This document shows positions 37,313 to 48,842 of a stretch of DNA of 64,000 bases, piece by piece. The notes under the pieces were generated by a model. It was not told the origin of the DNA, made no database searches, and saw nothing but the letters and a program-made list of their open reading frames with translations. How positions within the stretch are numbered: position 1 is the stretch's first letter; each line of letters opens with the position of its first letter. The position numbers were made by a program, and so were the translations under genes. The DNA is taken from positions 992,001 to 1,056,000 of the forward strand of contig NZ_JAGQCW010000001.1 in assembly GCF_024346395.1 (NCBI RefSeq). Reading direction: 5' to 3'. Source of the DNA: Cyanobium sp. AMD-g. GTDB taxonomy: Bacteria > Cyanobacteriota > Cyanobacteriia > PCC-6307 > Cyanobiaceae.

Positions 37313-37819
37313 ATGACCCTCTCGATGCACGGGGCGGCCGTTCCGCCCCTGGCCCGCAGCCTGAGCAACCTCAGCGGCATCCTGGCCAAGGCGGCCGCCC
37401 ATGCCGAAGCCAGGGGCATTGATCCAGCCGTGCTGTTGCAGGCGCGCCTCTACCCCGACATGTTCCCCCTGGTGCGGCAGGTGCAGATCGCCACCGACAT
37501 CGCCCGCCGCGGCCTGGCCCGGCTGGCCGGGGTGGAGAGCACGGCCATGGACGACAACGAAGCCAGCTTTGAAGAACTGATCGAACGCGTCGCAACAACC
37601 CTCGCCTGCCTGAAAGGTTTCTCCGCCGAGCAGATCGACGGCACCGAAACCAAGCCGATCGAGCTGACGATCCGCAGCGAGACACTTCACTTCAGCGGCC
37701 AGAGTTTCCTGCTGTTCTTCGTTCTGCCCAACGTCTATTTCCACGTCACCACCACCTACGACATCCTGCGCCACAACGGCGTGGAGCTGGGCAAGCGGGA
37801 TTTCCTCGGCGAGCCCTGA
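37313..37819 (+). CDS. DUF1993-like protein
   Basis: 168 residues. MTLSMHGAAVPPLARSLSNL, then LYPDMFPLVRQVQIATDIAR and LPNVYFHVTTTYDILRHNGV at the end, resemble DUF1993, a DinB-like four-helix family seen in bacteria and fungi. His residues near the C-terminus could bind metal. The function is unknown. It stands alone and is convergent with the DUF3326-like gene, with 9 nt between. Confidence 0.8.
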   Translation: MTLSMHGAAVPPLARSLSNLSGILAKAAAHAEARGIDPAVLLQARLYPDMFPLVRQVQIATDIARRGLARLAGVESTAMDDNEASFEELIERVATTLACLKGFSAEQIDGTETKPIELTIRSETLHFSGQSFLLFFVLPNVYFHVTTTYDILRHNGVELGKRDFLGEP

Positions 37820-37828
37820 GCCCCTGGC

Positions 37829-38887
37829 TCAGCCCTGGCCCACGGTCTGGGGCAGGGGGCGCCGCAGGACCACCGGGTCCAGGCCCTCGCGCAGGGCCAG
37901 AACGATCCCGGCCGCCTCGGCATAGGTGGCGGCCGGGATCACCGGCAGCCCCAGGGCCTCACCGCCGACCTGCAACAGACACGGATTGCCTTCCACGGCG
38001 ATCACGGGCACGCCCCGCTCGGCGCAGGCCAGCACCGCCTCACCCCCCAGGGCTCCGGCCGGGGCCACCACCGCCCCCACATCGGCGCCGTGCAGCAGCC
38101 CGTTGCCGCTGGCCGGCTCGGGCCGCAGGGAAGGGGCCCGGCTCAGGCCCACCAGCACACAGGGCAGGAAGGTGTGGCCCAGCTCCTCGGCCGCCGCCCG
38201 CGGATCCAGCCCGGGGTCGGACGGCAGGGGCGCCAGGGCGGGAGCATGGGCGCAGGGCACCACAAGATGGCGCACCAGCAGGTGGCTGATCACCGCCTCC
38301 GCCCCGGCCAGGGCGTCCACCCCGATGCCGTGGCGGTAGGCCGCCAGGGCATCGCTGCCGGGCTCCTCAGGGAAGCGGGCCACCACGGCGATGGCCGTGG
38401 CCCCGGCGGCCAGCAGCGCTTCACCGCCCCGCAGCAGCGCATCCGCCCGGCCCAGGGTGCCCCAGCTGCTGCCGCTGGGCCCGATCGACAGGCTCACCTC
38501 CAGGGGCACGTCGCTGCTCAGCACCGGGCCGATCGTCAGCCCCAGGCTGGCGCGGCAGGCCTCAATCACCTGGCGGTGGCGCAGCAGCAGCTCCGCTTCG
38601 ATGCCCGCATCCAGCAGCACCCCCACCCGCTGACTGGGCACCGGCGCCAGGGCCAGCTCGCCGGCGGCGAAGCGGTCCAGGCTCCAGCCCTCCACATAAT
38701 GCAGGCGCCGGTCGCTCCAGTAGAGGGAGGCGGCGTTCATCACGTTGGGGTGGGTGATCAGGCAGCCGCTGGCCGCCGCCAGCAGCCGGGCCGCCGGCAG
38801 GCCGTCGCCGGCGAAGCCGCCCACGGCGCATCCCACCCCGGTGGGGATCACCAGCAGGGTGGGCAGGGGCGGGGCTGACGCGCTCAA
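37829..38887 (-). CDS. DUF3326-like protein
   Basis: 352 residues from a TTG start at 38887 that overlaps the stop of the preceding small gene (TTGA). TLLVIPTGVGCAVGGFAGDGLP opens the protein, and LITHPNVMNAASLYWSD and GHTFLPCVLVGLSRAPSL are recognisable blocks of the DUF3326 family as I remember it. It is a soluble, Gly/Ala-rich alpha/beta protein with a pattern like a sugar or nucleotide-binding fold. No catalytic assignment can be made. It is the last gene of a four-gene overlapping operon. Confidence 0.75.
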   Translation of the reverse strand: MSASAPPLPTLLVIPTGVGCAVGGFAGDGLPAARLLAAASGCLITHPNVMNAASLYWSDRRLHYVEGWSLDRFAAGELALAPVPSQRVGVLLDAGIEAELLLRHRQVIEACRASLGLTIGPVLSSDVPLEVSLSIGPSGSSWGTLGRADALLRGGEALLAAGATAIAVVARFPEEPGSDALAAYRHGIGVDALAGAEAVISHLLVRHLVVPCAHAPALAPLPSDPGLDPRAAAEELGHTFLPCVLVGLSRAPSLRPEPASGNGLLHGADVGAVVAPAGALGGEAVLACAERGVPVIAVEGNPCLLQVGGEALGLPVIPAATYAEAAGIVLALREGLDPVVLRRPLPQTVGQG

Positions 38888-39093
38888 CGGCCGGGGGTCG
38901 GTGCCGGCCCCACCACGATCCCCTCCAGCCGCAGGCCGCGGCGGGGATCCACCGCCGTGATCGCCCAGCGCAGCGGTTCAGCGCCCGCACCGGCCAGGCG
39001 ATGGGCTTCCCGCGTTAGCGCCTGCCGCAGCTGGGGAAGCAGGGGGCCGGGGGCGGCCTGCAGCCAGAGCTCCAGGGGCACCAGGGAACTCAC
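38884..39093 (-). CDS. Small protein of unknown function between ferredoxin and DUF3326 genes
   Basis: 69 residues from a GTG that overlaps the ferredoxin stop (GTGA). Its own stop overlaps the next start (TTGA). The sequence begins MSSLVPLELWLQAAPGPLLP and has RWAITAVDPRRGLRLEGIVV near the end, which reads like a compact beta-rich domain. The two 4-nt overlaps argue that it is a real gene. No family recognised. Confidence 0.68.
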   Translation of the reverse strand: MSSLVPLELWLQAAPGPLLPQLRQALTREAHRLAGAGAEPLRWAITAVDPRRGLRLEGIVVGPAPTPGR

Positions 39094-39509
39094 TTCTGGA
39101 ACTGACCGAACTGGGCTTCGTAGAGGGCGTCCTCCTGGCCGGCCAGCAGGTCGAGGTCGGCACGCGGGTAGGAGACGCAGAGCAGGGCGTAGCCCTTGGC
39201 CTGGAGTTCGGCCTTCACGCCCATGGCATCGGGCTGGTGCACCGTGCCGCTGCGCAGCAGGGCGGCGCAGGTGGTGCACACCCCCGAGCAGCAGGAGCTG
39301 GGCAGGGGCACGCCGGCGGCCTCAGCGGCGCTCAGCACCGTCTGGTCGCTGCGGCAGGAAAAGCTGTGGGCAACGCCATCCAGGCTGGCGCTGATCTGGA
39401 AGACGGTGGGCTCTGGGCTGGTCGCTGGTGTGGTCTCGGGCACGGGGGGGTGGGGGTCCGGGAGGGGCGGCGGTGGCAGGGGCGGCTCAGGCTCCCGACG
39501 CCTTGCCAT
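39090..39509 (-). CDS. [2Fe-2S] ferredoxin with Pro-rich N-terminal extension
   Basis: 139 residues. The first ~34 residues are Pro/Glu-rich (PLPPPPLPDPHPPVPETTP) and not part of the fold; a later start is possible. The ferredoxin core has cluster ligands in SSCCSGVCTTCAALL and ALLCVSYP, a variant of the plant-type CxxxxCxxC...C pattern with an adjacent extra Cys. It is not the photosynthetic type at 1798. It overlaps the oxygenase-like gene by 23 nt and is followed by the small gene, which suggests a dedicated electron carrier. Confidence 0.88.
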   Translation of the reverse strand: MARRREPEPPLPPPPLPDPHPPVPETTPATSPEPTVFQISASLDGVAHSFSCRSDQTVLSAAEAAGVPLPSSCCSGVCTTCAALLRSGTVHQPDAMGVKAELQAKGYALLCVSYPRADLDLLAGQEDALYEAQFGQFQK

Positions 39510-40215
39510 CCTCCCCGATCACCAGCCAGCGGCCGGGATGGGGGGCGAGGTACTCCCCCGGGTGGCCCGCCATCTCAGGGGCCGTGAGAACGAAGTCGAT
39601 GCTGAGCGAGAAGCGGGTGTCGTCGGGGTCGTCGTTGGGCAGCACCGCATGGTCGACCGAGGAGGGGAACAGCAGCAGCAGGCCGGCCCGGGGCGCCACG
39701 TCGTGCCAGGGCTGGTTGAGGGCCGCCGCGGCGTCGATCGGGCCGTCCTGGCCCAGCGCCAGGCCCGGCACCAGCTCATTCACCTGCCGGGGGGCGAACA
39801 GACGCAGGCAACCGCTGCGGCCACGGCCATCGCCGTTGAGATAGTAGACGGCGCTGAGGTGGGCATTGGGGTGGTGATGGCGCCCCACCTGCTCACCGGC
39901 GTCGCTGAGCACCGGCCAGCTGCGCTGCACATGCAACGCCACGCGCCGGCGATCAAACCCCAACGCCTCCAGGTACTGCCAGGCATGGCCTGCCAGGCGG
40001 GCGATCAGGGGGGCGAACAGGGGGTCACGGTGCAGCTCGCCGGCACCACGCACATCCCCGGTCCAGGCCACACCCTCCTCGCTGGGGGCCTGCTCACGCA
40101 GGGCCAGGGCCCTTTGCAGCCACAGGGCAGTGTCGAGCGGATCGGGCGCCAGCTGCACCCGGCCCAGGGCCATCGGGAACAGGGGCTGGATCGCAAGGCT
40201 GGCGGGGGCGGCCAT
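39487..40215 (-). CDS. 2OG-Fe(II) oxygenase-like protein
   Basis: 242 residues from the ATG at 40215. The double-stranded beta-helix signature is GRHHHPNAHLSAVYYLNGDG, then an LRLFAPR strand, and the distal metal/2-oxoglutarate segment GLLLLFPSSVDHAVLPN. This resembles the uncharacterised 2OG-Fe(II) oxygenase family often called TIGR02466. It probably hydroxylates a protein or small molecule. It is first in the four-gene unit; the ferredoxin downstream overlaps it by 23 nt. The substrate is unknown. Confidence 0.78.
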   Translation of the reverse strand: MAAPASLAIQPLFPMALGRVQLAPDPLDTALWLQRALALREQAPSEEGVAWTGDVRGAGELHRDPLFAPLIARLAGHAWQYLEALGFDRRRVALHVQRSWPVLSDAGEQVGRHHHPNAHLSAVYYLNGDGRGRSGCLRLFAPRQVNELVPGLALGQDGPIDAAAALNQPWHDVAPRAGLLLLFPSSVDHAVLPNDDPDDTRFSLSIDFVLTAPEMAGHPGEYLAPHPGRWLVIGEDGKASGA

Positions 40216-40442
40216 GGATAAAGGCGACGGGAGTCGCGGCGACTGGGAACCGAATGGGCCTGAGCGGAAACTCTGGGACCATGCCGTCCCGTGCCTGGTC
40301 GTGGCCGATGGTGTTCGAGCGGCAGGCCTGGTGCCGCCGCGCCCCAGGGGCGTGCACAACCCTGCCGACGGATGGAGAGGCCCATGCGGGCACAACAGGC
40401 GACCATGTCAGAATCCATCCAGCGAATGATGGAGGAGAGGAA

Positions 40443-40724
40443 ATGAAGAAGATACTGAAAGTGATCGGCCTATTGTTTCTCTCAATCGATACAGTTGTTA
40501 CCCTCTCCTTTCTCTACTGGGCTCTAACAGCAAGCACTCGAGATGGCGAGGTTGCCTATGCCTTTGTCTTTCTCCTGTTCTCCTTGGCGTACATTGGCAT
40601 TGGCGGTGGAGCGTTGGTCTTCAGCGCCAAACGTGGGTCCGTCTTGGGACTCTGGTTTTCGACCGTCTTCCTGGGCCTTCCACCTGTCCTCTTCGCCGCC
40701 ATACGGATCAGCAACTCCCTCTAG
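40443..40724 (+). CDS. Small membrane protein of unknown function (93 aa)
   Basis: Starts at ATG 40443 with a strong Shine-Dalgarno (GGAGGAGAGG) just upstream. It has three hydrophobic segments: LKVIGLLFLSIDTVVTLSFLY (~5-25), YAFVFLLFSLAYIGIGGGAL (~39-58) and GLWFSTVFLGLPPVLFAAIR (~69-88). Codon use and base composition are clearly AT-richer than the flanking core genes, which suggests transfer. No family recognised. First gene of the 40.4-45.9 kb accessory stretch. Confidence 0.72.
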   Translation: MKKILKVIGLLFLSIDTVVTLSFLYWALTASTRDGEVAYAFVFLLFSLAYIGIGGGALVFSAKRGSVLGLWFSTVFLGLPPVLFAAIRISNSL

Positions 40725-40850
40725 CGCACCAACGGAGATGGCGGCCTGGTTCGCTCTGATCGGCGCAACAGCCCGGCCTGGCAAGCGCGGAGGGATGAAT
40801 GATTCATCCGACACTGACATCCAGACAGGCAGCGTCCGGGAGCTGACACC

Positions 40851-41315
40851 ATGACAGCACGTCGTCTCTGCTGTGGTCTGGCAGTCCTGCTTCTCAGTGG
40901 CTGCAAATCACTTTGGACGATCACCAATCGCTCGGGGCTCGAAGCCGATGTTCGCGAACTCCTGAAGACGGCTGCCGTCGAACCGCAGCATCTGGACTGC
41001 CGCATGGTCGGCAGCACACGACATGCCTCTTGCTCCCTTCGCCTGTCTCCGCCAGAGGCCGCATCTGTGATTCGGGCTCTGGCGCTCGAGGGCATCCAGA
41101 CATCTTCAGAACCCTCCTCTCCCCAGGCACGGCTGATCGCCGATACTGGCCCCAGCTGCGTGGCAGACACATCCAGGCCCATCGTCACATACGGCCGAGG
41201 GAATCGCCCCACCTCGCTGCGGCTTGCCAGTGGCACGGCCTTCGATTATCTCCTGCTCAGCATCAATAAGTCGACGGCCCAGGCGTGCGTCCAGATCTCC
41301 TACTCCTACGGGTAG
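40851..41315 (+). CDS. Putative lipoprotein of unknown function
   Basis: 154 residues. The N-terminus MTARRLCCGLAVLLLSGCKS contains a lipobox (LLSGC), so it is probably processed and lipid-anchored at Cys18. The mature part has four more Cys (DCRMVG, ASCSLRL, PSCVADTS, QACVQISY), which could form disulfides in the periplasm. It is AT-richer than the core genes, as are its neighbours. No family recognised. Confidence 0.7.
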   Translation: MTARRLCCGLAVLLLSGCKSLWTITNRSGLEADVRELLKTAAVEPQHLDCRMVGSTRHASCSLRLSPPEAASVIRALALEGIQTSSEPSSPQARLIADTGPSCVADTSRPIVTYGRGNRPTSLRLASGTAFDYLLLSINKSTAQACVQISYSYG

Positions 41316-41499
41316 GCCGCGTTGGACCGACTGCAAAGGTGACCACGATCTGCCTGGCTGCAGCTCCCCCTGCAACGACCATGCATTCGTTCCCAGAATC
41401 TCACGGCCTCGCTCCGAGAAAAAGGCCTTCGCAGCAGCGGACCAATGGTATGGTGCGCCAATGAACCGTTGAGACAACGACATTCAGGAGAAAGAAGAG

Positions 41500-41895
41500 A
41501 TGATTCGAGCCTCGATCACAACGACAGTTTCCATACGGGCGTCTGCCGAAAAGGTGTTTGAGTTCCTATCCAATCCTGCGAACTGGCCTCTGTGGGCGAT
41601 TGTCAATGTCAAGGCCATTCGGCCATCTGAAGATGAGTGGTGGGACGTGGAGACGCCCATGGGTCAAGCCAAGCTTCGGATCAGGCCTGATGCCTCCACA
41701 GGACTTCTGGACCACGATTTCCATGCTCCCGACGCCAGTTGGACGGTACCGGCACGGGTTGTTCCGAACGGAGATGGCAGTGAGTTTATGCTTACATTCT
41801 TTCAGCCTCCGACATTTGGCGATGACTTTTTCAAGCAACAAGTGAACCTTGTAGATAGCGAACTGGCGAAGCTCAAAGAGATCATGGAATCCTAG
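41500..41895 (+). CDS. SRPBCC-superfamily protein
   Basis: 131 residues, with a good purine-rich leader (AGGAGAAAGAAGAG) before the ATG. The pattern SVSIRASAEKVFEFLSNPANWPLWA is the START/Bet v 1-like opening (strand, then helix with FxFLSNPxNWPxW). It is followed by antiparallel strands and a C-terminal helix (VDSELAKLKEIMES). Such domains bind hydrophobic ligands; no enzymatic residues stand out. Base composition is AT-richer than in core genes. Confidence 0.75.
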   Translation: MIRASITTTVSIRASAEKVFEFLSNPANWPLWAIVNVKAIRPSEDEWWDVETPMGQAKLRIRPDASTGLLDHDFHAPDASWTVPARVVPNGDGSEFMLTFFQPPTFGDDFFKQQVNLVDSELAKLKEIMES

Positions 41896-41948
41896 ATGCC
41901 ACTCCTTTTCGCCATTCCGCCTATCCTCGGAATCCGAGATCTGCATTG

Positions 41949-42668
41949 ATGGCCTCCCCTGCTGACCCATCCTGGGCTGCCCCAGCCCTGCTCACTGGGG
42001 TCATCGCTGCCCTGGGTTATGTGGGCAAAACGGTCGCCGAATTGGTTCTTCAGCTGCGCGGAACAGCGCTGGAACGCAGAAGTCGACTGGTCGAGCTACA
42101 TGCGCTGCTGCGCGCCGGCGACGCGGCCTACGCAGCCCAAAGGAGACTGTTGAAACGGCTGGCAGTTCGGCTGAGAAGTCGTGTACCTGAGGCCGCTGAG
42201 CTGCCCCCTGGATTTGATCGACTCCTTCTGGAGACCTACGCGGTCATGAACGGGGAGGAAAGGCAGCTGCATGGATTGATTCGGGCGATGACCATTCACA
42301 CGTTCCGCCCGCTGAACCAATCACTGCTGCAGTGGCTGCGCGCAGATTGCTACTTTCGGGCTGCACCGCCTTCCCACCGCCGTTTGGGTGAACTGGCGCT
42401 GTTTCTGGCTGAGCTGGAGGCACACCTGGTGATCTGGGTCGCCAAGTATGAAGCCTGGATCCCGGACCAACCCGACCATGCCCTGGTGTACCTGGCCGAT
42501 GAGAACAAGCATGGCGTGGCTTTCCCCAAGCATGGGGCTGCCATCCTTGCCAGGGTGCTATATCATCCACTGCCAAGAAGAAGGCGGCCCAACTGGATGC
42601 CCACGGCTGGATTTCCCCATCACTTAAAGCGTCCGCGTTCAAAGTATGGGAGCAGAACACACACTTAG
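41949..42668 (+). CDS. Protein of unknown function with N-terminal membrane segment; C-terminus may be frameshifted
   Basis: 239 residues from the ATG at 41949. One hydrophobic segment is near the N-terminus (AALLTGVIAALGYVGKTVAE-like, ~14-32). A helical, Arg/Leu-rich domain follows (LERRSRLVELHALLRAGDAA; LAVRLRSRVPEAAELPPGFD). The last ~35 residues (PRRRRPNWMPTAGFPHHLKR...) are unlike the rest. The frame one base over reads STAKKKAAQLDAHGWISPSL, which looks more like protein, so an indel near 42550-42575 is possible. No family recognised. Confidence 0.55.
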   Translation: MASPADPSWAAPALLTGVIAALGYVGKTVAELVLQLRGTALERRSRLVELHALLRAGDAAYAAQRRLLKRLAVRLRSRVPEAAELPPGFDRLLLETYAVMNGEERQLHGLIRAMTIHTFRPLNQSLLQWLRADCYFRAAPPSHRRLGELALFLAELEAHLVIWVAKYEAWIPDQPDHALVYLADENKHGVAFPKHGAAILARVLYHPLPRRRRPNWMPTAGFPHHLKRPRSKYGSRTHT

Positions 42669-42693
42669 ATCAGGAGAACCTCCGTCCTCAGCC

Positions 42694-43452
42694 ATGCTCC
42701 ACCGCCTTGCCGATGATCTCTGGGTTGCCGAACAACCGCAGACCTACTTCGGCCTGAGCATCGGCACAAGGATGACGGTCATCCGCCAGCGGAGCACCAA
42801 CAAGTTGGTGCTCCTTTCACCGATCCAGCCATCTGCTGAGCTCGAAAAGGGCCTGGCCGAACTCGGTGTCGTCGGCGATATCGTGGCGCCCAACGTCTTC
42901 CACCATCTCTATCTCCAGGCGTTCAAGCAGCGCTTCCCTTTGGCAACCACCTGGGGGCCGCCCGCCCTCAGACAGAAATGTCCCCATCTGGAGCTGGATC
43001 GTCCGCTCAGCGCTGACGCCCCTTCCCCATGGCCAGAGCTGTTGCTTTGCAGCCTCACCGGACTCCGCACCTTGGGGCCGACGGGGCCATCCCCGCTGCA
43101 CGAGGTGGCCTTCTGCCACAGGCCAAGCAGGACCCTGATCCTCACAGACAGCGCCTTCCATTTCGATGCCTCCGCGTCCTGGCTCACCCAGTGGATCACG
43201 CGAATCGGCGGCGGTTTCAATCGCCTGGAGCCCACGATTCTCGAGCGCCTGGCCACTTCAGACAGGACTTCCCTCGCCAGGGCCGTGCAGGTTGTGCTGC
43301 AGTGGGATTTCGACAGGGTCATCGTGGCCCACGGCGCCGTCGTTGAACACGGCGGCAAGGAAGGCCTCACCATGGCCTATGCGGCATTCCTGGACGGCGC
43401 TCTGGACACTTGCGCCGGCGACGAATCCTTCACCCACGACCCTCACGCATGA
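42694..43452 (+). CDS. DUF4336-like protein (metallo-beta-lactamase-related fold)
   Basis: 252 residues. ADDLWVAEQPQTYFGLSIGTRMTVIRQ at the start (two blocks), VGDIVAPNVFHHLYLQAFKQ with paired His, and a C-terminal DFDRVIVAHGAVVEHGG match the DUF4336 family as I know it. Members resemble metallo-beta-lactamase folds but lack the full HxHxDH set; here the paired His and the later His are the only candidate ligands. Its stop overlaps the oxidoreductase ATG (ATGA), indicating one operon. Confidence 0.75.
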   Translation: MLHRLADDLWVAEQPQTYFGLSIGTRMTVIRQRSTNKLVLLSPIQPSAELEKGLAELGVVGDIVAPNVFHHLYLQAFKQRFPLATTWGPPALRQKCPHLELDRPLSADAPSPWPELLLCSLTGLRTLGPTGPSPLHEVAFCHRPSRTLILTDSAFHFDASASWLTQWITRIGGGFNRLEPTILERLATSDRTSLARAVQVVLQWDFDRVIVAHGAVVEHGGKEGLTMAYAAFLDGALDTCAGDESFTHDPHA

Positions 43453-44435
43453 AAGCCGTTGTCGCTGAACGCTATGGACCGCCCGAGGTGCTGCGCCTCA
43501 AGGAGATCCCCACCCCCACGCCCAAAGACAACGAGATCCTGATCCGGATCAACGCCACCACCGTCACCTCAGCAGACTGGCGGATTCGAAGCCAGACGGT
43601 CCCGACGGGCTTCGGGCTGATCATGCGGCTGGTGTTCGGCCTGCGGAAGCCCAGGCAACCGATCCTCGGCTCGGAGCTGGCCGGGCTTGTCGCGGCGATC
43701 GGCAAAGACGTCACCCGGTTCAAGGAGGGGGAGCGGGTCTTCGCCTTAAGCGACGTCCGCATGGGCTGCCATGCCGAGTACATCGTCCTGCCCCAGGACG
43801 GCATGGTGGTGGCCACCCCGCCTGGCCTCAGCGATGAAACGGCCGCCGCCCTCTGCTTCGGCGGAACGACGGCCCTCGATTTTCTGCGCCGGGGCAAGGT
43901 TCAGCCCGGGGACAAACTGCTGGTGAATGGGGCCTCAGGGGCGGTAGGCACCGCCGTGGTGCAACTGGCCCGGCACCTCGGGGCTGAGGTCACCGTGGTG
44001 TGCAGTGGAGCCAACAGCGATCTGGTGCGCTCCCTGGGTGCGGCCCATGTCATCGACTACACCCAGGCCGACTTCACCAGGAACGGTGAAACCTATGACG
44101 TGATTGTCGATACGGTCGGCACGGCCCCCTTCTCTCGCTGCAGGCGATCGCTGAGGGATGGGGGGCGGCTGTTGCTGGTGCTGGCCGGGTTGCCGGACAT
44201 GCTGAAGGGCGTTTGGGTGTCGCTGACGAGCCGGCACACGGTCATCGCCGGGCCCGCTGCCGTGAAGCTTGACGATCTGATCCATCTGGCGGCACTGGCT
44301 GCAGCGGGCGACGTCCAACCGGTCATCGATCGACGTTATCCGCTTGAGCAGATCGTGGAAGCCCATCGGTATGTCGACACCGGACGAAAAAAGGGCAATG
44401 TCATCATCTCCATGCGCAACCCACCTGCAAGCTGA
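43449..44435 (+). CDS. Zinc-less MDR-family NAD(P)H-dependent oxidoreductase
   Basis: 328 residues. MKAVVAERYGPPEVLRLKEI and LGSELAGLVAAIGKDVTRFKEGERVF are the GroES-like half. The coenzyme-binding Rossmann motif is LLVNGASGAVGTAVVQLARHLGA-like, near residues 160-180, followed by VIDYTQADF and VDTVG. The structural and catalytic zinc cysteines of alcohol dehydrogenases are absent, so it fits the quinone oxidoreductase/zeta-crystallin branch. The substrate is unknown. It is coupled to the DUF4336-like gene by a 4-nt overlap. Confidence 0.85.
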   Translation: MKAVVAERYGPPEVLRLKEIPTPTPKDNEILIRINATTVTSADWRIRSQTVPTGFGLIMRLVFGLRKPRQPILGSELAGLVAAIGKDVTRFKEGERVFALSDVRMGCHAEYIVLPQDGMVVATPPGLSDETAAALCFGGTTALDFLRRGKVQPGDKLLVNGASGAVGTAVVQLARHLGAEVTVVCSGANSDLVRSLGAAHVIDYTQADFTRNGETYDVIVDTVGTAPFSRCRRSLRDGGRLLLVLAGLPDMLKGVWVSLTSRHTVIAGPAAVKLDDLIHLAALAAAGDVQPVIDRRYPLEQIVEAHRYVDTGRKKGNVIISMRNPPAS

Positions 44436-44798
44436 CGACCGATCCGTCATTCGGTGCGCATCTGGCTGAGATGCGCAGGTCTGTCGCCGTAATCCTCTGC
44501 CCGTTGGACGACGCCGCAAGACAGGAGGACCCATCGGATTTTCGTATCGTGTGAGGGAATGGCTGCCTGATCGTGCCCAATCGGGAGAGCATTGAGGCTT
44601 TCTTCCTCCCAGGCGAGCTGAGCAACGGGATCCCCAGGCAAGGGCGCCCTGCAGCGACGCCATCCATCCCAGTGGATGTAGGGGAGTGGAACGCATGCGG
44701 GATTGCTGACATGGGTGTACGGTGAAGAAGACAGATAGGCACCGACCACCGTTGCAGGTGCTTCCGTGCTGGTCTGCTCCTCTCAAAGAGAAGGCCTG
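44436..44798. other. Intergenic stretch without a recognisable gene
   Basis: 363 nt between the oxidoreductase and the HD-GYP gene. Short open frames exist on both strands but have no plausible start context and overlap one another. I see no hairpin-plus-T terminator and no tRNA. It could be a decayed gene or contain the HD-GYP promoter. A Shine-Dalgarno-like AAGAGAAGG precedes the ATG at 44799. Confidence 0.5.
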
Positions 44799-45887
44799 AT
44801 GAAGCCTGTCATCAAAAAGAGATATGGGCCCAATGGCAGAGGGGAAGCGGCCCTTCTTGTGGCAACCAATGCCCTGGCCAGCTTGCGAATGCCTCTGGAG
44901 TTGGCGCTGACGGAGCGCAGGAAGCAACTGCACTGCCTCCAGCAGATTGAGCAGATCATTGGCGCCAGCCAGGGCAGCATCGACGACATTCTTCAGCAGA
45001 CCGTCGACACCATCCCGCACGCCTGGCTGCATGCCGCCCACACCGTGGCCCGAATCTCCCGGGGCAGCAAGGTGTATCAGACGGGCAATCTTGATCATTG
45101 CCGATCCGTGCAGTCGTCGCCAATCAAGGCCAATGACACCATCTATGGCCGGGTGGATGTTGGCTACACCGAAACGTTTGCCGAGGCCATCGAAGGGCCG
45201 TTTCTGACGGAAGAACGGCTACTGCTGGACACGATCGCCAGCCGGCTGGGCAGCCTGATCGCCAAGGCGATCGCCGAGGAGGGGTTGAACAGAACCCTCG
45301 ACGAGAACGAGAAGCTGTACAAGCAGTTGCTCACGGTTCTGGGCGGGATGGCAGAGATGCGGGATCCCTATACCGCTGGCCACCAGCAGCGTGTGGACCA
45401 ACTGGCCCTGGCCATCGGGGTGGAACTGGGGCTGCCCGTGCGGCAGTTGGAGGGCCTGCAACTGGCCGCTTCTGTCCACGACATCGGCAAAATCATGATC
45501 CCGGCGGAGCTCCTGTGCAAGCCGACGACACTGACCCGCCATGAATACGACCTGATCAAGGACCATGCCGAGGCTGGCTACAACATCCTCAAGGACGTGG
45601 ATTTTCCCTGGCCGATTGCCCGCATCGTGCACGAACACCACGAACGGATGGACGGCAGTGGCTATCCCAACGGCCTGCGGGGGGATGAGCTGCTGCTTGA
45701 ATCCCGGATCGTGGCCGTCGCCGACGTGGTGCAGTCCATGTGCGCCCATCGCCCCTGCCGTGCCGGCCTTGGCTGTGATGCCGCCTTGGCGGAGATCAGC
45801 AAGAACCGAGGCAAGCTCTACGACGCCGACGTGGTGGACGCCTGTCTACGGCTGTTCAACGAGAAGCGCTATGTCTGTGGATGTTGA
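44799..45887 (+). CDS. HD-GYP domain signalling protein
   Basis: 362 residues from the ATG at 44799; a GTG at 44766 is an alternative. An N-terminal GAF-like region (~40-170) ends in LLLDTIASRLGSLIAKAIAE. The HD-GYP domain follows: HDIGK with His227-Asp228, EHHERMDGSGYPNGLRGDEL with the GYP signature near 288, and SRIVAVADVVQSM. HD-GYP proteins hydrolyse cyclic-di-GMP, and all motif residues are present. It lies alone; the sensed signal is unknown. Together with the PAS-GGDEF-EAL protein it implies cyclic-di-GMP turnover in this cell. Confidence 0.87.
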   Translation: MKPVIKKRYGPNGRGEAALLVATNALASLRMPLELALTERRKQLHCLQQIEQIIGASQGSIDDILQQTVDTIPHAWLHAAHTVARISRGSKVYQTGNLDHCRSVQSSPIKANDTIYGRVDVGYTETFAEAIEGPFLTEERLLLDTIASRLGSLIAKAIAEEGLNRTLDENEKLYKQLLTVLGGMAEMRDPYTAGHQQRVDQLALAIGVELGLPVRQLEGLQLAASVHDIGKIMIPAELLCKPTTLTRHEYDLIKDHAEAGYNILKDVDFPWPIARIVHEHHERMDGSGYPNGLRGDELLLESRIVAVADVVQSMCAHRPCRAGLGCDAALAEISKNRGKLYDADVVDACLRLFNEKRYVCGC

Positions 45888-45907
45888 GGCCTGAACCGGA
45901 TCACCTG

Positions 45908-46348
45908 ATGTCAGGCGCCTGCCACCGCCCCCTGCGTCTGCCGCCAGGGGTGGATCTGCGCGGGGAACTCGAAGCCCTGGCCCTGCAGGATCAGGGGCTC
46001 AGCGGCTTCATCGTCTGCGGTATCGGCAGCCTTGAGCGTGCGGTGCTGCGCTTTGCCGATCAGGACGAAGGGACCGTGCTGGCCGGTCCGCAGGAGGTGC
46101 TCACGCTGACGGGCAGCTTGAACGGGGATGGCGCCCATCTGCACGTGATGGTGGCCGACGTCACAGGTCACGCGCTGGGAGGTCACCTATGCCACGGCAG
46201 CCGGGTTCGCACGACCATGGAAATCCTGCTGCTCTGCCCGGAGGGCTGGCAGCTGGGCCGGGAGCGGGATGCCGCCACCGGCCACCTGGAGCTGACGATC
46301 AGCCCATCGCGGCCGCGCCACCCACCACTTCCAGGATCTCCTGGGTGA
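45908..46348 (+). CDS. PPC/DUF296-domain protein
   Basis: 146 residues from the ATG at 45908. The PPC fold signature is visible: [62 protein letters not shown] and [20 protein letters not shown], with the conserved His in HLHV and GGHL. In bacteria such proteins form trimers of unknown function; in plants the domain is in AT-hook proteins. Its last 50 nt overlap the 3' end of the convergent atpG gene. Confidence 0.82.
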
Positions 46349-47249
46349 TGGCCGCCTGGCGGGCTTTGTTGTAGTCGAGGGTGAGCGTCTTGGCGAGTGC
46401 CTTGGCGTTGTCGCTGGCGTTGTTCATGGCCGTCATCCGGCTGGCCAGTTCGCTGGCGGCCGCTTCCTGGAGGGAGCGCAGCAGCTGGTTGGCCAGATAG
46501 AGGGGCAGCAGGGCATTGAGCAATTGCTCGGGGCTCTGCTCGAACACGAAGTCGGGCTGAAGGGCCGGCTCAGCATTCTCCACCTTGCCCACCTCCACGC
46601 CAAGGCGGCCGTCGCGGGTGATGAGACGGAAGATCTCGTCATCCGAGCTGGCAATGCCCTGGGGGTCGAGGGGCAGCAGGGTCTGGACGACCGGCTGGGA
46701 GCTCACCAGGTTGATGAAGCGGGTGAAGACGATCTCCACCCGATCGGTGCTGGCCGAAAGGAACTCGGCGAGCACTTCGTTGGAGATTTCGTTCGCCTCC
46801 TGAGAGGTGGGCACCTGCTCCAGGCCGGTGAAGGTGGCCCGGATCGGGTAGGAGCGGTTGGTGAAATAGGTGATGGCCTTGCGGCCCATCAGCACCATGT
46901 CCACCGCAAAGCCCTGACCCTTGAGTTCAGCGAAGCGCTGCTCGGCGCGGCGGATGACGTTGGCGTTGTAGCCGCCGCAAAGGCCCCGGTCACCGGTGAC
47001 CACCAGCAGCGTGATGGTGCCCACCGGGCGGCGCTCGGCCAGCAGGGGGGAATCGGCCCCCTCGAAGCCCATGCGGGATTCAAGGTTCTGCAGCACCCGG
47101 GCCAGGCGATCGGCGAAGGGGCGGGTGCGCAGCACCTGCTCCTGGGCACGACGCACCTTGGCGGCGGCCACCAGCCGCATGGCTTCGGTGATTTTGCGTG
47201 TGTTCTTGACCGAACTGATCCGGTCGCGGATTGCCTTGAGATTGGCCAT
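46299..47249 (-). CDS. atpG: ATP synthase F1 gamma subunit
   Basis: 316 residues. [21 protein letters not shown] at the N-terminus and [20 protein letters not shown] at the C-terminus are the coiled-coil shaft. The cyanobacterial/chloroplast insert is present mid-protein ([20 protein letters not shown]) but lacks the regulatory Cys pair of plants, as in other cyanobacteria. It is the central rotor of F1. The cyanobacterial name is atpC. It follows atpA by 13 nt and is the last gene of the operon. Confidence 0.96.
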
Positions 47250-47262
47250 GGGTGGAGAGTCC

Positions 47263-48780
47263 TCAGGCGGCAGCCAGCATCGAGGAGGTGACCTCGCGGA
47301 TGGCCTCCTTGAGCATGGCTTCGGATTCGTCGCTCAGCACCTTGTCGGTCTGAACCTTGCTGATGTACTCGGGCTTGCTGCTCTTGAGGTACTCACGCAG
47401 TTCGCGGGCGAACTGGGGCACCAGCTCCACGGGCACATCGTCGATCAGACCCTTGACGCCCGCATACACCACCGCCACCTGCTCAGCCAGGATCAGGGGG
47501 CTGAACTGGGGCTGCTTGAGCAGCTCACGCAGACGCTTGCCCCGGGCCAGCTGGGCCTGCGTTGCGGCATCGAGGTCGGAGGCGAACTGGGAGAAGGCGG
47601 CCAGTTCGTCGAACTGGGCCAGCTCCAGCTTCAGGGTGCCGGCGATCTTCTTGATGGCCTTGGTCTGGGCCGCGCCACCCACCCGGCTCACCGAGATGCC
47701 CACGTTGATGGCGGGCCGCAGGCCGGAGTTGAACAGGTCGGAGCTGAGGAACACCTGGCCGTCGGTGATCGAAATCACGTTGGTGGGGATATAGGCCGAG
47801 ACGTCACCGGCCTGGGTCTCGATGATCGGCAGGGCGGTCATGCTGCCCTTGCCCATGGCGTCGGAGAGCTTGGCGGCCCGCTCCAGCAGGCGGCTGTGGC
47901 AGTAGAAGACGTCGCCGGGGTAGGCCTCACGACCGGGGGGACGGCGCAGCAGCAGGGACATCTGGCGGTAGGCCTGGGCCTGCTTGGTGAGGTCGTCGTA
48001 CACCACCAGGGTGGCCTTGCCCTTGTACATGAAGGACTCGGCGATGGCCGCGCCGGTGTAGGGGGCCAGGTACTGGAGGGCGGCCGCCTCCGAGGCGCTG
48101 GCTGCCACCACAACGGTGTAGTCGAGGGCGCCGCGCTCGCGCAGCACTTCCACCACGTTGGCCACCGAGGCGTTCTTCTGGCCGATGGCCACGTAGACGC
48201 AGACGACGTCCTCACCTTTCTGGTTGAGGATCGTGTCGATGCAGATGGCGGTCTTGCCGGTCTGGCGGTCGCCGATGATCAGCTCCCGCTGGCCGCGGCC
48301 GATGGGGATCATGGCGTCGATCGCCGTGATGCCGGTCTGCATCGGTTCATGCACCGACTTGCGCTGGATGATGCCGGGCGCCATCGACTCGATCAGGCGC
48401 GTCTCGGAGGTGGGGATCTCACCCTTGCCGTCGATCGGCTGGCCCAGGGCGTTCACCACCCGGCCGAGCATGGCGTCACCCACGGGGACCGCCGCGATGC
48501 GGCCGGTGGCCTTGACGGTGCTGCCTTCCTGAATACCCAGGCCCTCACCCATCAGCACGACGCCGACGTTGTCATCTTCGAGGTTCAGCGCCAGGCCCTC
48601 GGTGCCGTCCTCGAACAGCACCAGCTCGCCGGCCATCACCTGCTCCAGGCCGTAGACCCGGGCGATGCCATCACCGATCTGCAGGACGGTGCCGACGTTG
48701 CTGACAGACACCGACTTGTCATAGTCGGCGATCTGCTTCTTGAGAATGGCGCTGATCTCGTCGGGGCGGATGGAAACCAT
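47263..48780 (-). CDS. atpA: ATP synthase F1 alpha subunit
   Basis: 505 residues, full length. The Walker A motif is [10 protein letters not shown] (near residue 170). [20 protein letters not shown] begins the protein, and the regulatory-nucleotide segment [20 protein letters not shown] is the family signature. It forms the non-catalytic sites of the alpha3beta3 head. It lies between the delta and gamma genes, the typical cyanobacterial order; beta and epsilon are elsewhere. Confidence 0.97.
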
Positions 48781-48842
48781 GGGTGGGAGTCCCCGGAGGG
48801 GAGGCGATGAAGTGAGAAGAAGAGGGGAAAGGGAGCGAAGCG

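Follow-up and report, generated by a model that had tools for sequence, protein, structure and literature searches.

A DUF3326 gene set with a small SHS2-like protein and a short C-type ferredoxin in Cyanobium sp. AMD-g and other cyanobacteria

A run of four genes on the minus strand of Cyanobium sp. AMD-g raises the question of which of their products belong together, and for what purpose. The run extends from 40215 to 37829 of the 64,000-nucleotide (nt) stretch of contig NZ_JAGQCW010000001.1 (positions 992,001 to 1,056,000) that was analysed here as a whole and is called the window below, and it encodes, in this order, a 2-oxoglutarate (2OG)-Fe(II) oxygenase-like protein, a [2Fe-2S] ferredoxin, a protein of 69 amino acids (aa) and a DUF3326 protein. 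The reading that we favour, and to which we give an even chance of being right, is that DUF3326 is an enzyme that has the small protein as its subunit or activator and that is redox-coupled through a ferredoxin of the Fed3 type in oxygenic cyanobacteria; this function is proposed from the linkage of the genes, which is observed directly. The operon would consist of three evolutionary layers. The oldest would be DUF3326 together with the small SHS2-like protein, a pair also present in some lineages without photosystem I. The second would be a dedicated C-type [2Fe-2S] ferredoxin of the Fed3 type. In oxygenic cyanobacteria its gene accompanies the pair, and it would most likely couple the use or the control of the enzyme to photosynthetic electrons. 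The third would be a 2OG-Fe(II) oxygenase gene placed between atpG and the ferredoxin gene in the Synechococcus/Cyanobium lineage, as a passenger or an add-on.

The four open reading frames (ORFs) are present with the coordinates and strand given by the first-pass annotation of the window, and three of them belong to clear families in a scan of the window proteins against Pfam and NCBIfam, in which matches at E <= 1 were considered. The DUF3326 gene (37829..38887, minus strand, 352 aa) matches PF11805 with E 4.1e-138 and 460.4 bits against a cut-off of 25, over positions 2-336 of the 337 of the profile. The ferredoxin (39090..39443, minus strand, 117 aa when read from a conserved GTG) contains the motif CX4CX2CX29C, common to plant-type and C-type [2Fe-2S] ferredoxins, and matches PF00111 (Fer2; E 2.8e-16, 59.6 bits against a cut-off of 21). 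The oxygenase (39487..40215, minus strand, 242 aa), which is the first gene, matches PF13759 (E 4.8e-20) and TIGR02466 (E 6.5e-18; 65.3 bits, above the NCBIfam cut-off of 62.5). The 69-aa ORF (38884..39093, minus strand) had no Pfam or NCBIfam match at this threshold. By its conservation this ORF is a real gene, since 80 of the 81 loci of a lineage set have a member of the same family no more than 1 kb upstream of DUF3326. The set comprises the window's own locus (L001) and the top 80 DUF3326 relatives, which all belong close to the window's lineage (loci of the Synechococcus/Cyanobium/Prochlorococcus type).

The pair formed by the small gene and DUF3326 was followed through a phylum sample of 146 genomes, 64 with PsaA/PsaB (photosystem I) and 82 without; the window's lineage is thinly represented in it, because only 6 of the 146 genomes belong to the window's own family. 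DUF3326 was present in 142 genomes (64/64 with PsaA/PsaB and 78/82 without) and the small protein was detected at E <= 0.01 in 101, namely in all 64 of the former, with one copy each, and in 37 of the latter. In 57 of the 64 genomes with PsaA/PsaB the two genes are no more than 1.6 kb apart, and in 54 no more than 300 nt. Moreover, the small gene accompanies DUF3326 in 27 of 30 loci from other cyanobacteria (L082-L111, covered to about 1.5 kb on each side) and in 15 of 20 further hand-picked loci, partly from the same genomes (L132-L151). A last hand-picked set (L112-L131) comprises two paralog loci (L130, L131) and 18 loci whose genomes lack PsaA/PsaB (L112-L129). The small domain is directly upstream of DUF3326 in four of these 18 loci (L112-L115) and is fused to it in one open frame in two others (L123, L124); the fused frames have 471 and 497 aa and no internal stops, and the fusions are backed by a profile match. 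This adjacency, the two fusions and the invariant residues described below suggest that the small protein may be a subunit or an activator of DUF3326. An earlier idea that the long N-terminal extensions of DUF3326 are all small domains was withdrawn, the profile test being unsupportive for several of them. When the genes that often adjoin DUF3326 in genomes lacking PsaA/PsaB were listed, no cluster other than DUF3326 itself reached four such loci.

The junctions of the gene set point in the same direction, with one correction. The GTGA overlap of the ferredoxin and small genes and the TTGA overlap of the small gene and DUF3326 are both present, and among 25 chosen loci (L001, from the window's genome, and 24 relatives) a start codon 4 nt inside the ferredoxin stop was found in 24 and a start codon 4 nt inside the small-gene stop in all 25. 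The first-pass annotation had every junction overlapping. This stands for the two 4-nt overlaps, which are conserved, while the 23-nt overlap of oxygenase and ferredoxin is doubtful because ATG 39509, on which it is based, is mostly missing in near relatives while a downstream GTG is kept: among the nearest 11 (L002-L012) the ATG is missing in nine and present only in L005 and L010, and an in-frame GTG is found 33-52 nt past the oxygenase stop in all 11, as it is in the window (39443, +43 nt). The ferredoxin probably starts at GTG 39443, with 117 aa and a gap of 43 nt after the oxygenase, instead of having 139 aa from ATG 39509. The in-frame stretch from that ATG to the conserved GTG (39444..39509, minus strand) is probably untranslated in the ferredoxin; it is proline-rich in the window and in some relatives and is likely to be a start-codon trap for annotation. 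Since the genes overlap or are separated by short gaps, the four are probably one transcriptional unit. The fixed product ratio that had been deduced from the overlaps does not follow from them. A promoter scan found 0 sites against 0.1 expected, and neither of the two terminator-like sites found (0.9 expected) lies between the four genes.

It could also be argued that we are looking at a neutral neighbourhood, that is, at a conserved gene order behind the atp genes in which the proteins have separate jobs, an explanation that we consider rather unlikely but to be taken seriously. Of the 81 lineage loci, 61 of which extend at least 4 kb upstream, 55 have atpG, the gene for the ATP synthase gamma subunit, ahead of DUF3326 on the same strand and no more than 6 kb off. 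In many of them the distance is 1.3-1.5 kb, too short for much beyond the oxygenase, ferredoxin and small genes. The Prochlorococcus locus L059 has 355 nt between atpG and DUF3326, and atpG is also upstream in some other cyanobacteria (L082, L093, L143 and, by eye, L172). Pieces of the set are, in addition, separate in several genomes. However, none of the six loci without PsaA/PsaB in which the small domain adjoins or is fused to DUF3326 had an atpG match (E <= 1e-20), and the lineage has retained the two 4-nt overlaps. Furthermore, of the seven PsaA/PsaB genomes whose small gene stands away from DUF3326, all of which were looked at, two (L172, L176) still have the ferredoxin directly before the small gene, so that this pair persists without DUF3326.

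What the small protein might be was approached through alignments and a structural model. The alignments (42 lineage rows and 43 broad rows) share a PLRWAIT...E core, in which Arg42 and Trp43 are invariant in the 43 broad rows. The model (pLDDT 94) has a strand at 2-11, a helix at 18-34 and strands at 39-49 and 53-63, which gives a beta-alpha-beta-beta order. Its best structural rows are of the Rpb7 type, with PilM, dodecin and FtsA lower, all at Z 4.6-5.8 and mixed with unrelated proteins. Because these Z values are low, the SHS2 arrangement claimed here for the predicted fold is one of topology only, not of kinship; which of the rows count as SHS2 is our own assumption, taken partly from the title of Anantharaman & Aravind 2004. 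When solved structures were searched with a profile of the small protein, only unrelated chains came back (E >= 0.07). A reading as dodecin, in which a Trp binds flavin, was considered for the Trp on the second strand and was dropped, as there was no PF07311 match at E <= 1 and no dodecin in 59 phylum genomes. Archease, which we take from a reference title to be an SHS2 protein, offers a likeness with its partner RtcB, since here too an SHS2-like small protein adjoins or is joined to an enzyme-like partner; this is an analogy only, with no sequence relation. In archease-RtcB the small protein is encoded in an operon with the enzyme that it activates (PMC3973293).

DUF3326 itself was modelled as an alpha/beta protein (pLDDT 82, pTM 0.84). 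In 30 phylum-wide rows 24 columns are invariant, 15 of them with polar residues or Gly, and these columns include G23 and G24, A26, G27 and D28, P47 and N48, Y64, E66 and G67, Y184, E197, H214, P216 and E234. D28, N48, E66, E197, H214 and E234 give this set an enzyme-like appearance, and we infer from it that DUF3326 may well be an enzyme. A search of solved structures with the single sequence found no match at E <= 10. The rows that the model returned are tied at Z of about 8-9.5 and include LacI-type proteins, Argonaute, lumazine synthase, a racemase and UDP-GlcNAc epimerase, the racemase and UDP-GlcNAc 2-epimerase rows (Z 8.3-8.8) standing among unrelated rows of equal score. Kinship with Asp/Glu racemases or UDP-GlcNAc 2-epimerases was rejected at the sequence level by profile-profile comparison (hhalign P 0.043 over 50 columns for the racemase and 0.3 over 24 columns for the epimerase), and weak Pfam matches of single members among the 30 (Asp_Glu_race, 0.031; Dehydratase_LU, 0.096) were treated as noise. 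In phages no DUF3326 match was found at E <= 1e-5.

A diverged paralog of DUF3326 is present in only two of the 388 genomes of the class that were searched (E <= 1e-80). Both copies are followed by genes for pyridoxal-phosphate (PLP) enzymes similar to Orn/Lys/Arg decarboxylases (OKR_DC). The two loci (L131:2967-11999 and L130:771-5177) have the appearance of natural-product clusters. One of them also contains a nonribosomal peptide synthetase (NRPS) and a B12-binding radical SAM protein, and the other two methyltransferases and a cupin. Since the paralogs adjoin PLP-enzyme genes, once together with an NRPS, DUF3326 is probably a small-molecule enzyme; its reaction is not named by these clusters. 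One may go further and place DUF3326 in amino-acid-derived or amino-sugar metabolism, with a substrate that carries an amino group. The OKR_DC-like genes behind both paralogs agree with this, as does a glmS-like gene that precedes the small gene in nine of ten loci opened in family f24, whose genomes lack PsaA/PsaB. We think it unlikely, given that the close paralog is confined to 2/388 genomes, that the glmS link concerns the small gene and not DUF3326, and that nothing of the kind appeared in the frequent-neighbour list of DUF3326, which was read by eye with no search for these families.

The ferredoxin is the next most regular companion. Of the 81 lineage loci, the window's included, 75 have a ferredoxin gene at most 1.5 kb upstream of DUF3326; the remaining six are four Prochlorococcus loci, L068, which is truncated, and L075, where the distance is 1.6 kb. 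Among the lineage loci is one from a record titled Bifidobacterium breve MAG (L069), which carries a Synechococcus-like locus and is probably a mislabelled bin. Ferredoxin genes were also found in 23 of the 30 loci of other cyanobacteria and in five of the 20 of L132-L151. The co-occurrence of ferredoxin and DUF3326, for which the first-pass annotation suggested a check, is confirmed by these counts, and it also agrees with a published arrangement. Cluster d of Cassier-Chauvat & Chauvat 2014 (PMC4284462) consists of fed3, a gene labelled 'DUF650' and DUF3326, that is, a ferredoxin, a small conserved hypothetical protein and DUF3326 on one strand and in the same order as in the window. The middle gene differs in its label, since the corresponding gene of the window matched no Pfam family at E <= 1.

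Which type of ferredoxin this is can be read from its tail and from a tree. The protein misses the cut-off of the plant-type model fdx_plant (TIGR02008; 69.2 bits against 81.15, for the 139-aa version) and continues for nine residues past the Tyr at which the genome's own Fd1 (L152) ends, with a tail of the Y-x-x-QF type, as in the Fed2 type but shorter. The genome encodes two plain Fd1 types (L152, which is the gene at 1798 of the window, and L153) and a long-tailed Fed2 type (L155) in addition to the operon ferredoxin. The remark that the latter is unlike the photosynthetic ferredoxin near 1798 is therefore correct, L152 being a plain Fd1 type and the operon protein having a C-type tail. In a tree of 34 rows, drawn without a true root, with a bootstrap that was not fully settled and with operon-type rows labelled from motif and tail, the 20 operon-type rows are separated from the others by a branch supported at 96/94. 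By tail and tree the operon ferredoxin is a short C-type apart from Fed2/FdC2, and it is Fed3-like, its likeness to Synechocystis slr1828 (Fed3) being judged by gene context and by separation from the Fed2 and Fd1 rows of the tree. Identity with FdC2 was ruled out because the genome has a separate Fed2 type (L155) and the tree splits the two; FdC2/Fed2 proteins have a long C-terminal extension (27 aa in plants), unlike the nine-residue tail seen here, and the operon protein is outside the Fed2 group of 12 rows, labelled by long tail. The tail shares its length with FdC1, whose extension has nine residues after the terminal Tyr (PMC5893904, PMC10947542), a likeness by length alone; FdC1 first appears in green algae (PMC5893904).

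The oxygenase follows a different pattern. In an alignment of 67 relatives, residues H113, H115, H189, R201 and S203 are each conserved in 97% or more; they form the motif HxHPN...H...RxS, in place of a plain HxD, and are putative Fe/2OG residues judged by sequence. Its family also occurs in cyanophages (phrog_81), with 20 phage records that are all below 60% identity, the 12 listed among them being at 24-31%. Close homologs (E <= 1e-6) were found in only six of the 146 phylum genomes, and only in the window's own genome (G000) and in G139 do they share a stretch with DUF3326. This figure counts close homologs only, because the protein search missed a second PF13759 oxygenase-like gene of the same genome, which is placed away from the operon (G000:C2:67491-67778). 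Within the lineage the oxygenase is common: it is found within 2.5 kb upstream of DUF3326 in 61 of the 81 loci, or in 55 of the 70 that have at least 2.5 kb of upstream sequence. Seven loci (L018, L019, L026, L056, L063, L064, L069) have their nearest oxygenase 3.0-6.6 kb away from DUF3326, and at L052, where ferredoxin, small gene and DUF3326 are all present, none was seen in the 8 kb upstream. In the set L132-L151 it was seen once, and in the other-cyanobacteria set it would be beyond the 1.5 kb reach. Co-occurrence of oxygenase and DUF3326 holds within the lineage and, counted by close homologs, fails across the phylum.

It was first proposed that the four products form an oxidative tailoring system, with the ferredoxin holding the iron of the oxygenase in its reduced state and DUF3326 taking care of the substrate. 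The contiguity of the four genes here and the proximity in 55/70 lineage loci speak for it. Nevertheless we regard this scheme as highly improbable: a pathway centred on the oxygenase, or the oxygenase as a core member, finds no support, with close homologs in 6/146 genomes against 142 with DUF3326 and only two genomes that have both on one stretch, and the distant oxygenases of seven loci, its absence from the 8 kb upstream at L052 and the four Prochlorococcus loci that have the small gene and DUF3326 only add to this. In general, 2OG oxygenases are not known to need a ferredoxin to keep their iron reduced. The distribution suggests that the oxygenase is a passenger or a lineage-specific add-on and not a required part.

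Returning to the favoured reading of an enzyme and its small partner, redox-coupled through Fed3, several observations weigh against it. Of the 82 genomes without PsaA/PsaB, 45 gave no match to the small protein (E <= 0.01), and at the other 12 of the 18 opened loci DUF3326 has no supported small domain beside it; the profile gives no support as small domains to the extensions of L125, L126, L128 and L129 or of the paralogs L130/L131. Even with PsaA/PsaB the two genes are apart in seven of 64 genomes (G105, G116, G083, G058, G089, G011, G085). The small protein also has uses without DUF3326, as follows from the f24 loci and from the g70 genomes without DUF3326, two of three of which still have a small-protein match. 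In f24 the small gene lies behind or overlaps the glmS-like gene (relatives at L161-L163 and L165-L170, with open frames of 52-95 aa); two of these genomes lack DUF3326, and SIS and GATase domains of the glmS-like neighbours were confirmed by Pfam in four of the nine. Foldseek and VIA-align gave no match for the DUF3326 model at E <= 0.001. As for the ferredoxin, the four Prochlorococcus loci have no Fed3-type ferredoxin near, and a ferredoxin search of G114 gave only two matches, the better one of the Fed2 type (L197). No ferredoxin of the operon type was found within 6 kb upstream of DUF3326 in any of the 20 hand-picked loci (18 without PsaA/PsaB and two paralog loci). The ferredoxin is not obligatory for DUF3326, because 78/82 genomes without PsaA/PsaB carry DUF3326 and the opened loci are without an operon-type ferredoxin. 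The electron-transfer step is the weakest part of the reading, because many genomes have DUF3326 with no Fed3 close to it; moreover no Cys is invariant in the 30 rows, so that direct electron transfer into DUF3326 would need an unseen cofactor. Finally, the reports on Fed3 itself conflict: PMC4284462 counts slr1828 among the essential genes, whereas PMC8887894 describes its complete deletion, which led to a growth defect under photomixotrophic conditions.

The lack of an invariant Cys would suit another role for the ferredoxin, that of a redox sensor or iron-status reporter which controls the pair of DUF3326 and the small protein and is not an electron donor. In Synechocystis the related Fed2 has been connected with the response to low iron (Schorsch 2018, cited in PMC8408499 and PMC10947542); however, PMC8408499 attributes the Fed2 phenotype to chlorophyll synthesis instead. 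Both papers treat Fed2/FdC2, which is another type than the operon ferredoxin. We consider a sensor distinctly unlikely.

Towards its DUF3326 end the gene set of the window is bounded by a convergent DUF1993 gene (37313..37819, plus strand), whose stop is 9 nt from that of DUF3326. In other cyanobacteria a gene for a CPBP/Rce1-like membrane protease is often the first or second ORF after DUF3326 on the same strand (27 of the 30 loci L082-L111 and nine of the 20 loci L132-L151), the family assignment having been checked on one locus. At the other end atpG (46299..47249, minus strand), close upstream of the set in many relatives, is here about 6 kb away, with a match to the ATP synthase alpha subunit gene (47266..48783, minus strand, matched stretch) upstream of it. 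The intervening 40216..46298 (about 6 kb) contains mostly plus-strand ORFs, among them, by eye, a quinone-reductase-like and an HD-GYP-like ORF.

In outline the gene set is known, since the ferredoxin review already names DUF3326 in cluster d. In the literature searched, DUF3326 was named only by that review and by a paper that lists a potato gene with DUF3326, and PF11805 nowhere. The accessible account of cluster d (PMC4284462) makes no mention of the oxygenase, of atpG nearby, of fusions or of an occurrence in non-photosynthetic genomes. As far as these sources extend, the SHS2-like topology of the small protein, its fusions with DUF3326, the presence of the genes outside the photosynthetic branch and the clusters around the paralogs are new here, as are the recognition of the ferredoxin as a short C-type apart from Fed2/FdC2 and the common position of the set after atpG.

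These observations turn a family that is near-universal in the sampled phylum genomes, yet scarcely named in the literature searched, into one with testable questions, for DUF3326 now has a candidate partner, two fusions, invariant residues and a paralog in a biosynthetic cluster. Tentatively, and as something that we hold to be possible more than probable, DUF3326 may be older than the photosynthetic branch and may constitute, with the SHS2-like protein and its Arg-Trp pair, an unrecognised two-component enzyme that oxygenic cyanobacteria later wired to light through a short C-type ferredoxin, at least one plant (potato) having retained DUF3326. The link to the ferredoxin also bears on the purpose of the low-abundance ferredoxins of cyanobacteria, where the two papers on Fed3 (PMC4284462, PMC8887894) are in conflict.

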